The notes under the pieces: generated by a model
The model's database searches: none
Told to the model about the DNA's origin: nothing
Seen by the model: only the letters and a program-made list of their open reading frames with translations
Shown here: positions 48,173 to 56,582 of the stretch, in pieces
Numbering within the stretch: the first letter of the stretch is position 1
How the letters are laid out: each line of letters starts with the position of its first letter
Made by a program: the position numbers and the translations under genes
NCBI GenBank assembly: GCA_002753395.1
Contig: PEAB01000014.1
Coordinates: 1 to 57,819 of the forward strand
Direction of reading: 5' to 3'
DNA length: 57,819 bases
DNA from: Nitrospirae bacterium MYbinv3
GTDB taxonomy: Bacteria > Nitrospirota > Thermodesulfovibrionia > Thermodesulfovibrionales > Magnetobacteriaceae

Positions 48173-49672
48173 TTAGCAGTGTACTCTCAATCTCTCAGGC
48201 TCTGTGTGGGGGATGAAGCGTGCTGAGAGGAATTCCCGCATGAAATCACCATCCTCGTTCATTTCTTTATAGGTAATCAGACCTGTAATGGTATTTATGT
48301 CCTCAAGGAGGCGGCGGTTCAACAGGAGTGCCTGCGCCCCTTCCACAGAGGAGTTGGTGATAGCAACAACCCTGACTTTTGGGAAGTCGGCGATAAGTCC
48401 CAACGTCTTTGCGGCATCAGGGTCTATGCCGGTTCCAAGCGCCCCCGTCAGATATAACCGCTCAATGTCGCTAAAGGTCAGTCCCACCGAGCCAATAAGG
48501 ACGTAAAAAAGCGTAAACATGGCGGCCTTTGTGAACATAAACGTCTCTATGTCCGTCTGGTTTATAGCGATAACCCTCATACCGTCGTCGTGGATGACAA
48601 AACCGAGCTTCCCATCAACGTCAGGCAGTCCGGTCCTGCCTGATATGAAAGTCCCGTGGTTGTCGATAAGTCCAGTCTTATAGAGGCTTGCCACAAGGCT
48701 TACCATACCTGAGCCACATATCCCCTCTGGGGGCAGGTTGTCAAAGGTTTTTAACTCCACCCTGTACGTAGACGGGTCAATTGCAACGTCATAGATGACG
48801 CCGGGGCCTGCCCTTTTGCCGATCTTTGCAACACCCTCGTCGAATGCGGGGCCTGCCGCTCCTGCCCCTACCAGTATCCAGTCCTTGCAGCCAACGGCTA
48901 TCTCGGCATTAGTGCCAACGTCTACGAGCACACGCGGCGACTGACCAAGGTGCAATCCCGTGGCAAGCACCCCTGACACCAGATCGCCGCCAACGTAGCT
49001 GCCTGTACCCGGAAATACGTACACGATGGCCTCTGGGTTTATCTTCAGATCCAGATCTTGAGGGCTAACAAACCCTGGTGCGTGGATTGCAGGCACGTAG
49101 GGACTAACGGGGATGTTGCCTACAGGCAGGTCTAACAGGAAGTGGGTCATCACCGTGTTTCCGGCAACGGTTACTGCCACAACGTCATACATTGTCACTC
49201 CTTGCGCCTTAACGAGGTCTTCGATGAGCTGGTTAATAGCCTCTGTCAACACAACGTGCAGGACGTTGTCTCCTGTCGATATAGCGTAAAACATACGGGT
49301 GAGGATGTCCGAGCCAAAGGCCAGCTGTGGATTTGGAACATGACAGGTTGTCGTCATTGTACCCTGCTCCAAGTCTATCAGTCGAGCCACTATGTTTGTA
49401 GAACCAAGGTCTATAGCCACCCCGTAGAGGGCTGACGGATTGAGTGATATTACCTTATAGTGGCAGCCATCCCAGCCAATGGCAGCGCTTAGAGAATAGT
49501 CCGCCTGCCTTATGAAAGCTGGCAGCTCTCTGAGTGTCTTTAAGGGAACGTGCACAGGAGACCTGTTTAGCACACTGAGGAATCTTTCCTTGTCGGCCTG
49601 TTTATCGACCTCAGTGGGTGGAGAAAGGACAACGTTTTCTCTCCATACCAAGGCATTATTGGTATCGTTCAT
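48173..49672 (-). CDS. RACo-like ASKHA ATPase (corrinoid-protein reductive activator family)
   Basis: The product belongs to the DUF4445/RACo family, whose members activate corrinoid proteins or related methyltransferases using ATP. The C-terminal ASKHA domain spans about 80-440 with ALYGVAIDLGSTNIVARLID (phosphate 1), FPGTGSYVGGDLVSGVLATGL, VLVDVGTNAEIAVG (phosphate 2) and LYLTGALGTGIDP. The N-terminal 2Fe-2S ferredoxin domain of classical RACo is absent; instead residues 1-75 form a different linker domain. The lack of a cluster suggests electrons come from a separate protein. It is a single gene. Confidence 0.85.
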   Translation of the reverse strand: MNDTNNALVWRENVVLSPPTEVDKQADKERFLSVLNRSPVHVPLKTLRELPAFIRQADYSLSAAIGWDGCHYKVISLNPSALYGVAIDLGSTNIVARLIDLEQGTMTTTCHVPNPQLAFGSDILTRMFYAISTGDNVLHVVLTEAINQLIEDLVKAQGVTMYDVVAVTVAGNTVMTHFLLDLPVGNIPVSPYVPAIHAPGFVSPQDLDLKINPEAIVYVFPGTGSYVGGDLVSGVLATGLHLGQSPRVLVDVGTNAEIAVGCKDWILVGAGAAGPAFDEGVAKIGKRAGPGVIYDVAIDPSTYRVELKTFDNLPPEGICGSGMVSLVASLYKTGLIDNHGTFISGRTGLPDVDGKLGFVIHDDGMRVIAINQTDIETFMFTKAAMFTLFYVLIGSVGLTFSDIERLYLTGALGTGIDPDAAKTLGLIADFPKVRVVAITNSSVEGAQALLLNRRLLEDINTITGLITYKEMNEDGDFMREFLSARFIPHTEPERLRVHC

Positions 49673-49745
49673 GCCGCCTGCTCTGTGTATGAGACACTTT
49701 TAGGCTTGACTACTTCCTTTTCCACGTTACCCAATCCCTTTGTTA

Positions 49746-50198
49746 TCAATTCCTGAATTTACTATGGCAGTTTACGCAGCCATCAAGGAGCTTCTTTGTC
49801 AGTACGAGCATAACCTTCTGGTTGTTCTCATGGGCTGCGTGGGCCAGTGCCTCTAATTCTTTATGAAACGCCTTATCCAACTTTACGAATTCCTTTAAAT
49901 TTTGCTTATTTTTAGGGATACTCACTGTACCGGAGCGAACGCCTTCATGGGTCTTTTCCAACGTTCCGTGCATGTTCTCCAGGGCCTTGTGAACCCTTTC
50001 ACCATCTCCTAAGGCAACACCTGATACAACCTCGTGAAATACACCATCCAGCTTTAACATCTCCTCCACAAGTGCACTACCAGTATGCTCGTCCTTACCA
50101 CCATGATTATCATGACTCCAGGCCCACTGTGAAGTCACAAACATGAAAAGAAAGACAATTAACATCACAGCTGCTTTTGTAAAAACTCTTTGTTCCAC
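49746..50198 (-). CDS. Class II-like cytochrome c
   Basis: A signal peptide (residues 1-28, SQWAWS-HDNHGG) leads to a four-helix bundle with heme-binding CVNCHSKFRN at the C-terminus, the cytochrome c' / c556 layout. His-rich N-terminus (HDNHGGKDEHTG) is unusual. Helix 1 contains MLKLDGVFHEVV, and no distal Met is certain, so ligation cannot be assigned. It lies 45 bp upstream of the acetate kinase fusion and may share its regulation. Confidence 0.88.
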   Translation of the reverse strand: MEQRVFTKAAVMLIVFLFMFVTSQWAWSHDNHGGKDEHTGSALVEEMLKLDGVFHEVVSGVALGDGERVHKALENMHGTLEKTHEGVRSGTVSIPKNKQNLKEFVKLDKAFHKELEALAHAAHENNQKVMLVLTKKLLDGCVNCHSKFRN

Positions 50199-50243: not shown

Positions 50244-52565
50244 TTACATATATGCCCTGGACTGTATGCCTTCTATGTAGCCCACTGTTCCAGGGACGTG
50301 TTCGACTGCATTTCCCTCATCAGTATCTATGTGCATGTCGAGTTTGTACTTTGGATTGACCCTGACTAGTACATCGCCAAAGGTTAGCTCCCTCTTGCTT
50401 TTGACCTTTACGAGTACAACGTCCTTGTCCCTTAGACCGTAGCCGAGGGCCTCCTCCGTGGACATGTGGATATGCCTTCTGGCGCATATAACCCCCTTGT
50501 CTATCTTTAGTTGACCCACCGGCCCCTCAAGTATCATCCCTGGGGTGCCCTCGATATCGCCAGAGTCACGGACAGGGGCATCGATGCCGAGCTTAAACTC
50601 CTCCGTGCGGGAGATCTCCACCTGGCACTCACTTCTGTAGGGGCCTAAGATCCTGACCCTGTCTACCCTGCCCTTGGGGCCAATGAGATTGACCGTCTCA
50701 TCGCTGGCATACTGCTCAGGCTGACTCAGCAGTATCTTTGGCGTCAACGACTTGCCTGGGCCAAATAAGACCTCAAAAGCAGCCTTGTTGACGTGCACGT
50801 GGTGAGCAGATACGTTGATGGGTATAGGCCTGCGCCTATACTCATCTACGTTGGCCGACCTGAACCTGCCTATGGCATGGAGTGTCTCTCTGGCTATCAT
50901 CATCTTCTCATTAGACTTAATGACGAGAACCCTTATTCTTGAACCCGGTGCGGTTATCTCCTCCACCTGCCTGAGAAAAGGCCTGTCCTGCCGATTAGCA
51001 TCCTCATACAGACTAATACCAAAGGGCTGCAACCCCTGGCAGACCCTGGCCCGTATCTCCGTAGAGTTCTCACCGGCCCCAGCGGTAAAGATAAGGACGT
51101 CCAGTCCACCAAGAGCAGCTATGTAGGAGCCAATATACTTCTTCACCCGATAACAGTACATCCCGACGGCGTTCTCGGCCCGCTTGTCGCCATGCTCAGC
51201 AGCATAAAGGACGTCCTTCATATAGTCGCTGACACCGCTAACACCCTTCAGACCGCTCTCAATGTTAAGTATCCTTGATAGCTCGTCTGGTGTATAACCG
51301 AGCTTTATTAAATATATGATTATACCCGGATCCAGGTCTCCACACATAGAACCCATCATAAGTCCTTCAAGCGGGGTCATCCCCATAGAGGTGTCTATGC
51401 TTCGCCCGTGGTCTATAGCACACACGGAGGAGCCATGACCAAGGTGACAGGAAATTATCTTAAGCTCCTTAATAGACCGCTTTAGGAATGTTGCCGCCTT
51501 GAGGGCAACATAACGGTGATTTATACCGTGAAACCCGTAACGTCGTATAGTCTCATCCTCATTGAGGCTAGTGGAAAGGGCATACTTATACGCATGTTCG
51601 GGCATGTTTCTATGAAAGGCTGTATCAAAGACTGCTACGTGCGAAACCTGTGGCAGGATTGCCATCATCTCACGGATACCAGCTAAATTGTATGGATTAT
51701 GCAGAGGCGCAAGATTAGAGTACAGTTTAATAGCATCTATCACCTCGTTGTCAATGAGCACGGAGTTAAAGAACTTCGCCCCGCCGTGCACAACTCGATG
51801 CCCTACCGCCTTTAATTCGTCAATCTGTTTAATCACACCCCTTTGGGGATCTGTAAGAGCCGCTAACATCAACTTAATGGCCCCTGCCGTATCCTTAACG
51901 TCTTCTGTAATCTCATACTTGCTGCCGGCTATATAAACCGTGTGGCTGGCATCTAGCATCCCAATCTTGTCAACAAGGCCCTCAATCATAGGAATACTGT
52001 ACCTGGTATCAAACAGTGCATATTTAAGTGATGCCCGCCGGCTGTTTAAGACCAACACCTTTACGGGATCTATAGCAGAAGAAAACTCCAGGTCGTAGGG
52101 ATCGCTATTGCTTTTCAATGCGGTAGTAATGTCTGGGCTTTCCATCCCATACTTTTCACGCTGGATCAGCCGCTTAGTAATAGTCTGAGCTATGCTGGCC
52201 AAGGTCTTAGGGTTTTTCATTATTATTTCAGAGCAGACGTCTCTTCTTAGCTTTATAACTACACAGCCGCCAGAGGCAACTATGTATACATTAGAAGGTT
52301 CACCGGTCATCAGAGACATCTCACCGAATATCTCACCCCTTATCAACGTTGCGACAACCTTTCTTTCACCGTCCGCATCCGCTATAATCACATCCACCTT
52401 GCCGTCGTAAACGACCCAGAGGAATCTGTCTATCTCGCCTCTCTTTTTCAGCTCCTGTCCATCACTGTACTCTCCCGCTGTGGCAGATGACGCCAGCGTA
52501 TCAATCTCTTCCTTGCTTAAGTCAGCTAACTGTTTGACCGACATAAGAAACCTTGGTAAGTCCAT
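50244..52565 (-). CDS. Fusion: cyclic-nucleotide-binding-type domain - acetate kinase - PduL phosphotransacylase
   Basis: This 773-residue protein joins a CRP/PKA-type sensor domain (about 15-135, with FGEMSLMTGEP at 80-90 but no arginine in the usual phosphate-binding cassette), a complete acetate kinase (about 168-568) and PduL (about 580-770). Acetate kinase motifs: Asn174, GHRVVHGG (Arg257), FDTAFH (Asp314), YGFHG (His346), DTSMGMTPLEG, and GAGENS (Glu499). PduL: SAHHVHV (586-592) and ARRHIHMS (695-702) zinc sites, and DMHIDTDEGNA. Together AckA and PduL would convert acetyl-CoA and ADP to acetate and ATP. Two substitutions stand out: the usual GTRxGDxDP reads GSMCGDLDP (Met407), and the usual NxGSS reads NSRRAS. 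Confidence 0.92.
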   Translation of the reverse strand: MDLPRFLMSVKQLADLSKEEIDTLASSATAGEYSDGQELKKRGEIDRFLWVVYDGKVDVIIADADGERKVVATLIRGEIFGEMSLMTGEPSNVYIVASGGCVVIKLRRDVCSEIIMKNPKTLASIAQTITKRLIQREKYGMESPDITTALKSNSDPYDLEFSSAIDPVKVLVLNSRRASLKYALFDTRYSIPMIEGLVDKIGMLDASHTVYIAGSKYEITEDVKDTAGAIKLMLAALTDPQRGVIKQIDELKAVGHRVVHGGAKFFNSVLIDNEVIDAIKLYSNLAPLHNPYNLAGIREMMAILPQVSHVAVFDTAFHRNMPEHAYKYALSTSLNEDETIRRYGFHGINHRYVALKAATFLKRSIKELKIISCHLGHGSSVCAIDHGRSIDTSMGMTPLEGLMMGSMCGDLDPGIIIYLIKLGYTPDELSRILNIESGLKGVSGVSDYMKDVLYAAEHGDKRAENAVGMYCYRVKKYIGSYIAALGGLDVLIFTAGAGENSTEIRARVCQGLQPFGISLYEDANRQDRPFLRQVEEITAPGSRIRVLVIKSNEKMMIARETLHAIGRFRSANVDEYRRRPIPINVSAHHVHVNKAAFEVLFGPGKSLTPKILLSQPEQYASDETVNLIGPKGRVDRVRILGPYRSECQVEISRTEEFKLGIDAPVRDSGDIEGTPGMILEGPVGQLKIDKGVICARRHIHMSTEEALGYGLRDKDVVLVKVKSKRELTFGDVLVRVNPKYKLDMHIDTDEGNAVEHVPGTVGYIEGIQSRAYM

Positions 52566-55382: not shown

Positions 55383-56582
55383 ATGCTTCTTGAAGTCAGG
55401 GGCTTAAGTAAGACTTTTGGCGGTCTAACGGCCATAAGCAACGTAGACATTGTTGTCAACGAGGGGGAGATAGTCGGTCTCATCGGTCCTAATGGGGCTG
55501 GCAAGACCACCCTTGTCAACTGCCTTACCGGCGCTGTCAGCCCCTCAAGCGGCTATATAAGGTTTAGGGGGGACTACATAGTTCCGGACGTGGACAAGGC
55601 AGCTACTGAACCGGTTGTCCGATTAAGCCATGTAATGCTCTTTATTGCCTTGTTGTGGGGGCCGGTCTATGCCTCTGCGGTGTTGGCTGAGGCGATGTTT
55701 CCACTTGAGACGTTCTTGGCGGTCTTGGCCTCAACGATAATGAGACTATATACGGCAAGGAGGCTTGCATCGTTTGTCAGGTGGAGCAGGGGGCTGACTA
55801 TCGCCTTTGCGGCGTTTGACCTCTTCACGGCGATCAGATGGTTTTTCAACGCTGATATTTACGGTAAGTACCGTTTTTTTTCACTGGGACCGGCGGCTAT
55901 ACAGATACTGCCATTAAAGCAGGTCATTATCTTAACGTCCTTGATCTTAATTATATACAGCCCGTTTGTTGTTATTATCCTGCTGCGCAGCGGGGCGCTA
56001 GCCGCATTTGACATATTTATCAAACCAAGCAGGATAAACGCACTGGGGATAGCGCGCACCTTTCAAAACATAAGACTCTTTAAGAACATGACCGTGTACG
56101 AAAACGTCAAGGCGGCTCGCCACAGGCATGGTCGCTGCGGCCTTTTGGCCTCTATACTTAGGACATCGAGGCAGCAGGTCGAAGAGAAGGACGTCGCACT
56201 GTCAGCATCAGAGACCCTTAGTTTTGTAGGTCTACAGGACATGGGCGACCTCAAGGCCTCCAATCTCTCCTACGGTGACCAGAGACGCCTTGAGATTGCA
56301 AGGGCGCTGGCAACCGATCCATCCCTCCTGTTTCTTGATGAGCCAGCCGCCGGTATGAACCCCCGTGAGACCGCCGCCCTCGTTGAACTCATGCAAGAGA
56401 TCAGACAAAGAGGCATAACAATTGTTATTATAGATCACGATATGAAGTTAATAATGAAAGCCTGCGATCGGATAATCGTCCTTGACCACGGCAAGAAGAT
56501 AGCAGAGGGCACACCCCTCGAAATAAGAACCAATAGCGAGGTCATAGAGGCATACCTTGGCGTAGAGGTAAGTCATGCTTAA
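55383..56582 (+). CDS. livG: LivG-type ABC ATPase with inserted membrane domain
   Basis: This branched-chain amino acid-type ATPase has Walker A (GPNGAGKTT, 35-43), then about 145 hydrophobic residues (67-213) containing roughly four membrane helices (LSHVMLFIALLWGPVYASAVLAE, FLAVLASTIMRLYT, GLTIAFAAFDLFTAI, KQVIILTSLILIIYSPFVVIILL), and only afterwards the Q-loop (GIARTFQN, Gln228), ABC signature LSYGDQRR, Walker B LLFLDEPAAG and the H-loop. A normal LivG has about 255 residues and 0-15 residues at this position. It overlaps livF by 8 bp. No livH, livM or binding protein is in the window. Confidence 0.9.
   Translation: MLLEVRGLSKTFGGLTAISNVDIVVNEGEIVGLIGPNGAGKTTLVNCLTGAVSPSSGYIRFRGDYIVPDVDKAATEPVVRLSHVMLFIALLWGPVYASAVLAEAMFPLETFLAVLASTIMRLYTARRLASFVRWSRGLTIAFAAFDLFTAIRWFFNADIYGKYRFFSLGPAAIQILPLKQVIILTSLILIIYSPFVVIILLRSGALAAFDIFIKPSRINALGIARTFQNIRLFKNMTVYENVKAARHRHGRCGLLASILRTSRQQVEEKDVALSASETLSFVGLQDMGDLKASNLSYGDQRRLEIARALATDPSLLFLDEPAAGMNPRETAALVELMQEIRQRGITIVIIDHDMKLIMKACDRIIVLDHGKKIAEGTPLEIRTNSEVIEAYLGVEVSHA

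Follow-up and report, generated by a model that had tools for sequence, protein, structure and literature searches.

A CNB-acetate kinase-PduL fusion protein in the Nitrospirota family of Ca. Magnetobacterium, with an intact PduL domain, altered ATP-side kinase motifs and a paralogue of reciprocal pattern

Described relatives of the three domains

Acetate kinase (AckA) is a dimer. In the enzyme of M. thermophila (MtACK), Asn211 is in contact with the beta-phosphate, Arg285 runs alongside the adenine and the residues of the PHOSPHATE1 loop matter for catalysis; activity falls 6- to 200-fold in the variants N211A, N211T and N211S, about a sixth of it remaining in N211A (PMC4390882). The acetate carboxyl is bound by Arg91 and Arg241, and the R241A variant has 0.4% of the kcat (PMC6461089). 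Pyrophosphate-dependent acetate kinases (PPi-ACK) are recognised by an extra Gly that lengthens PHOSPHATE2 and by replacement of Gly331-Ile332 (PMC5517563). For PduL, roles have been assigned to the zinc ligands and to Arg103 (PMC4784909). Additionally, two reports describe cAMP-independent PKA regulatory subunits of Trypanosoma, which contain cyclic nucleotide-binding (CNB) domains, as binding nucleosides (PMC6440977, PMC10959531). These component families are known; in the open-access literature searched, neither their fusion, nor a pseudo-acetate kinase, nor the loss of opposite active sites after duplication of the fusion was found described, which is not proof of novelty.

Architecture of the fusion protein

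The window analysed here comprises positions 1 to 57,819 of contig PEAB01000014.1 of Nitrospirae bacterium MYbinv3. An uninterrupted single open reading frame (ORF) of 773 codons occupies positions 50244-52565 on the minus strand, while the plus strand of the same interval contains many stops. It encodes, from N- to C-terminus, a CNB/CRP-type sensor domain (residues 32-118, 52212..52472; Pfam PF00027, E 1e-15, 57.6 bits against a cut-off of 27.5), an acetate-kinase-like domain (residues 169-559, 50889..52061; full profile of PF00871, E 7e-130, 433.6 bits against 22; TIGR00016, 432.5 against 293.4) and a PduL (phosphate propanoyltransferase, PTAC) domain (residues 582-755, 50301..50822; near-full profile of PF06130, E 6e-72, 241.6 bits against 25). 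All three are on the minus strand, as are the individual motifs located below. The AlphaFold2 model is confident (mean pLDDT 84.8, pTM 0.82). Its N-terminal part matches the CNB fold, Foldseek places its kinase domain with M. thermophila acetate kinase 1g99 (E 1e-45) and its PduL domain lies at an rmsd of 1.2 Å from R. palustris PduL 5cuo. A first-pass annotation made from the letters had described CNB, full AckA and full PduL in one 773-residue chain, without stating the strand, and this description holds.

The same three-domain order and length are found in 14 orthologues (two of which end at a contig end), in a paralogue encoded by the window genome and in proteins of other phyla. The fusion is therefore real, and a split frame or sequencing error, which the first-pass annotation had named as a possible undoing of its proposal, is ruled out. 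A recent pseudogene was likewise ruled out, since the dN/dS of the kinase is about 0.1 and stops are absent.

Compared with AckA of known structure (M. thermophila 1g99/1tuy, Thermotoga maritima 2iir), the kinase domain is full-length, with 45-46% identity and a TM-score to the target of 0.88-0.89, and it keeps the acetate-side residues R91, H123, D148 and H180. It differs by G9R/S10R/S11A, N211H, D283Y/R285K and E385K, by an R241M change of its own genome, and by its position between CNB and PduL. The PduL domain aligns ungapped over 171 residues with R. palustris PduL (5cuo/5cup) and has all its zinc ligands and Arg103; unlike that protein, it is one portion of a 773-aa chain. A Pfam check of adjacent genes detected no microcompartment domain.

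Kinase motifs

Kinase residues are numbered here after the M. thermophila enzyme (Mt) unless the window protein is named. In PHOSPHATE1 (residues 174-179, 52029..52046), the window protein has N174-S-R-R-A-S179 where Mt has N7-A-G-S-S-S12, so that the catalytic N-x-G-S-S-S loop is replaced by NSRRAS. In PHOSPHATE2, the catalytic Asn211 is His377 (51435..51437). The adenine pocket in LOOP4 carries Tyr448-x-Lys450 (51216..51224) for Asp283-x-Arg285, and Lys554 (50904..50906) stands for Glu385, which adjoins the metal-binding Glu384. Of the acetate-binding pair, Arg91 is kept and Arg241 is replaced by Met407 (codon ATG, 51345..51347). Asn7, Ser12, Arg91, His123, Asp148, His180, Gly331 and Glu384 are all retained.

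The window protein and its 14 orthologues, referred to as clade B, share most of these changes. Position 9 is G to R in 15/15, Arg285 is lost in all 15 (R285K/T/E/L), N211H and D283Y each occur in 14/15 and E385K in 13/15, while S10 and S11 vary freely; Asn211 persists in the protein of strain XS-1 (L041). On the acetyl-phosphate/acetate side, R91, V93, H123, D148, F179 and H180 are kept in all 15 proteins, as is Gly331; Glu384 is also kept.

Arg241 is retained by the other 14 clade B proteins. Met407 is therefore private to the window genome and was ruled out as the key change; it rests on one assembly, in which a base error at Met407 alone could account for it. The first-pass annotation had stressed Met407 together with NSRRAS. 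Both are real, but the weight given to the former was misplaced, and its list, although it included the PHOSPHATE1 change, had missed His377, Tyr448, Lys450 and Lys554. Its view that Asn174, Arg257, Asp314, His346 and Glu499 (Mt Glu334) are kept is borne out. The alignment that it had proposed, with acetate kinase structures and proteins of the same domain order, confirms the motif changes and finds them to be mostly clade-wide. Its suggestion of a possible change in substrate, direction or activity can be made more specific: ATP-dependent kinase activity is probably lost and PduL activity retained.

PduL domain and CNB sensor

Mapping through the ungapped alignment to 5cuo locates the zinc ligands His589, His591, Glu650, His698, His700 and His745 and the phosphate-contacting Arg644 in the window protein, and all are present. 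Their equivalents (H48, H50, R103, E109, H157, H159, H204, Arg644 corresponding to R103) are intact in 15/15 clade B proteins, with the qualification that L015 ends before the last. The PduL active site of the window protein is intact, and phosphotransacetylase activity is most likely.

The CNB cassette, TGEPSNVYIVA (GEMSLMTGEPSNVYIVA), lacks the phosphate-binding Arg expected for cAMP or cGMP, as noticed in the first-pass annotation, which took this to mean that the ligand may differ. The Arg is also missing from the paralogue and from the full-length relatives shown; since it is absent across the fusion family, its loss is not peculiar to the window copy. The best fold match of the domain is to the Trypanosoma PKA regulatory subunits (6h4g, 6hyi), whose ligand is reportedly not a cyclic nucleotide; the other matches are PKA-type CNB domains. 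Unlike the window protein, the Trypanosoma subunits are eukaryotic protein-kinase regulators, and identity is about 25%. Sensing of a ligand other than cAMP or cGMP is, on these grounds, a speculative assignment.

A paralogous clade with the reciprocal pattern

The paralogue in the window genome (778 aa, G000 contig C11) belongs to a second group, clade A, and has perfect kinase motifs (NCGSSSLK, HLGNGA, GTRCGD). Its PduL is damaged by deletion of the QPGQ-loop region; all seven key residues are still present, so this PduL might retain some activity. Throughout clade A (17 proteins) the kinase motifs are canonical (17/17), and an unaltered PduL occurs in none (0/17). PduL is absent from seven of them (G001, G002, G006 and four genus-g2 genomes), R103 is changed to K in another seven (genus g3), and the QPGQ loop is rewritten in G009. 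The two clades are thus reciprocal: clade B keeps PduL and loses kinase motifs, whereas clade A keeps the kinase and loses or alters PduL.

The same asymmetry is visible in comparison with a single-copy relative, G007, in which both active sites are intact. Identity to G007 is 49-56% for the kinase and 67-72% for PduL in clade B, versus 53-58% and 35-60% in clade A, so that the PduL/kinase identity ratio is 1.27-1.45 in clade B and mostly the reverse, 0.66-1.07, in clade A. Nei-Gojobori dN/dS values, rough because many dS are near or above 1, are 0.04-0.15 for the kinase and 0.04-0.12 for PduL in clade B, against 0.056-0.13 and 0.13-0.39, respectively, in clade A. From these ranges, the altered clade B kinase is under purifying selection and constrained rather than decaying, and the clade A PduL is relaxed.

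Clade A co-occurs in 14/14 genomes with clade B, all from the family to which its relatives assign the window genome, that of Ca. Magnetobacterium in the Nitrospirota; some of these genomes are incomplete. In G001 and G002, the sole PduL lies in the clade B protein and the sole canonical kinase in the clade A protein. A true Pta (strong PF01515 match) was found only in G009 among the family genomes.

Two further variants occur in the family. In the clade A protein L120 (G008:C40), nearly all PduL zinc ligands are lost (HHREHHH to LTTVHVL), leaving a pseudo-PduL behind a canonical kinase. Genus g2 (G012, G004, G010, G014) has a third ORF of 351-356 aa (L128, L129, L130, L131), composed of a remnant of the C-terminal half of acetate kinase and an intact PduL, which is a further stage of kinase loss.

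Clade B is monophyletic in the kinase tree (100/99) and, for members with enough PduL sequence, in the PduL tree (98/92). A topology with clade A as one clade gave AU p=0.135, which does not settle its monophyly, and the duplication history is approximate for this reason. The best reading of these sequences is that the CNB-AckA-PduL gene was duplicated, after which one copy would have lost the ATP motifs and the other lost or altered PduL.

Fusions in other phyla

Fusions of identical order and length occur in Syntrophales (L045, L174-L188), as in G007. These differ from the window protein in a canonical N-x-GSSS PHOSPHATE1 and in Ser or Asn at 211, and their PduL residues are intact (loops and PduL where readable); because of the canonical loops and intact PduL, they look bifunctional. 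The fusion was found in about 23/100 Syntrophales genomes sampled. Position 211 is mostly Ser instead of Asn in L174-L188, with kinase loops otherwise canonical, and a few Syntrophales genomes carry two fusion copies, both with canonical kinase loops. The Myxococcota proteins (L051-L057) also have the kinase fused to PduL; they differ by a near-canonical PHOSPHATE1 and Gly at 211 and, as their match to the window protein starts at the kinase, by the lack of a related CNB domain. In Syntrophales, Myxococcota and G007, the canonical-kinase fusion is usually the only AckA detected in the genome (Syntrophales counts made at the strict threshold E<=1e-60 on draft genomes).

The fusions of Planctomycetota and Lentisphaerota (L046-L050, L059, L144-L148) resemble clade B in domain order, intact PduL, an altered kinase loop and a separate canonical AckA, which is present in 9/9 genomes with a degenerate fused kinase (G100-G105, G120, G129, G139). 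Their kinase is altered differently, with losses of its own: the loop is mostly S-C-R-x-x-D (N7S, S12D), and His123 is Asp or Glu. They appear to form an independent clade. Their union with clade B in one clade, and with it a common origin of the altered loop, was rejected by an AU test run without the loop columns (p=0.02), which is moderate evidence only; kinase loss in these phyla is apparently independent of that in clade B. By a hand tally, all genomes whose fusion is altered (23/23) have a further canonical kinase, compared with about 6/27 of those whose fusion is canonical; the Fisher p of about 5e-9 overstates independence because the genomes are related.

Proposed function and alternative explanations

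The explanation that accounts best for this protein, and which we consider probable, is that of a PduL phosphotransacetylase with a CNB sensor and a pseudo-acetate kinase, for which a canonical kinase acts in trans. The ancestor would have been a bifunctional CNB-AckA-PduL protein converting acetyl-CoA and Pi to acetyl-phosphate and on to acetate and ATP in one chain. Given its intact PduL active site, the window protein most likely catalyses the reversible conversion of acetyl-CoA to acetyl-phosphate. Its kinase domain keeps the fold and most acetate-side residues, the residues for nucleotide phosphate and adenine being gone; as these residues are lost, the protein most likely no longer makes ATP, and its kinase-like domain is most likely conserved but inactive. 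Phosphoryl transfer would fall to the clade A paralogue with its canonical kinase. The architecture, the reciprocal motif states, their distribution and the purifying selection are observed; loss of kinase catalysis and a division of labour in trans are what we infer. Intramolecular channelling of acetyl phosphate, proposed in the first-pass annotation, becomes less likely for the window protein because the ATP-handling motifs are changed throughout clade B; the canonical kinase resides in the paralogue.

Several observations count against this explanation. R9, H211, Y283 and K385 are conserved under purifying selection, a pattern also expected of a re-specialised active site; in addition, Gly331 and Glu384 remain, the orthologues retain Arg241 and L041 retains Asn211. 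A domain that is still catalytic with another phosphoryl donor or acceptor (PPi/Pi, as for the Entamoeba histolytica enzyme, or a different phosphate compound), within a bifunctional enzyme of changed energetics, would agree with the strong purifying selection on the clade B kinase, with a conserved acetate/acetyl-phosphate pocket next to a changed adenine pocket (D283Y, R285 lost) and with basic residues newly conserved at Mt positions 9, 211 and 385 (Arg176, His377, Lys554). However, the Entamoeba-type PPi-ACK signatures are absent, HLGHGS being of normal length and Gly331 kept in 15/15; moreover, S10 and S11 of PHOSPHATE1 vary freely, unlike a re-tuned phosphate loop, and Arg241 is lost in the window protein. 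We regard such a donor change as unlikely.

The conserved acetyl-phosphate side of the orthologues and the lost nucleotide side would also suit an acetyl-phosphate hydrolase (acyl phosphatase) taking acetyl-CoA to acetate without ATP. This activity would waste energy in organisms described as Wood-Ljungdahl autotrophs (PMC10278575); a precedent was not found and R241, needed for carboxyl binding, is lost in the window copy, which together make it highly improbable. It is also quite unlikely that the protein is an ordinary AckA-PduL fusion that tolerates its motif changes and retains a low but genuine ATP-dependent kinase activity, duplicating that of the paralogue. The intact fold, the Pfam and TIGR00016 scores far above cut-off, the retention of N7, S12, G331 and E384 and the residual activity of MtACK N211A speak for such a kinase, yet at least five ATP-side positions are changed together across clade B, the canonical paralogue always co-occurs and, in other phyla, the same loop has disappeared in what appear to be separate events, there too only in genomes that possess a canonical AckA.

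If the domain is a pseudo-acetate kinase, one speculation is that it persists as a scaffold for dimerisation or as a sensor of acetyl-phosphate, bringing PduL together with the active kinase under the control of the CNB domain. A more detailed proposal, which we offer tentatively and hold to be somewhat doubtful, is that a pseudo-acetate kinase evolved at least twice: non-catalytic, it would bind acetyl-phosphate (or acetate) without nucleotide, form a heterodimer with the canonical paralogue and gate PduL under a CNB domain that responds to something other than a cyclic nucleotide, so that one acetate pathway would be assembled from two reciprocally inactivated fusions.

Implications

Subfunctionalisation by complementary loss is textbook theory. 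The duplication of a fused bifunctional enzyme, with loss of opposite active sites in the two copies, would be an unusual case of it, and intermediate stages are visible across related genera. To this is added the apparently independent kinase loss in other phyla, and the case is directly testable with simple assays. The analysis also corrects an annotation: despite having lost its ATP-side motifs, the window protein would be named acetate kinase. A complete Pta-AckA pathway has been said to set strain XS-1 apart from its freshwater relatives (PMC10278575). The freshwater genomes searched (among G000-G018) have PduL plus a canonical kinase, which provide for the chemistry of Pta-AckA; this bears on that contrast. 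Acetyl-phosphate is a possible regulatory signal in these uncultivated magnetotactic Nitrospirota.

Genomic neighbourhood

No conserved neighbour gene was found in the flanks of the orthologues, so operon support for a partnership is absent. Directly downstream of the fusion, on the same strand (window 48173-50198, minus), lie a cytochrome c'-like ORF and a RACo-type corrinoid-protein activator, the latter itself an ASKHA protein; this pair is not conserved in the flanks of the orthologues. Finally, a LivG-type ABC ATPase of 399 aa is encoded at 55383-56582 on the plus strand, with its ABC domain in two stretches: a hydrophobic, membrane-like insertion of about 150 residues separates the Walker A part from the rest.
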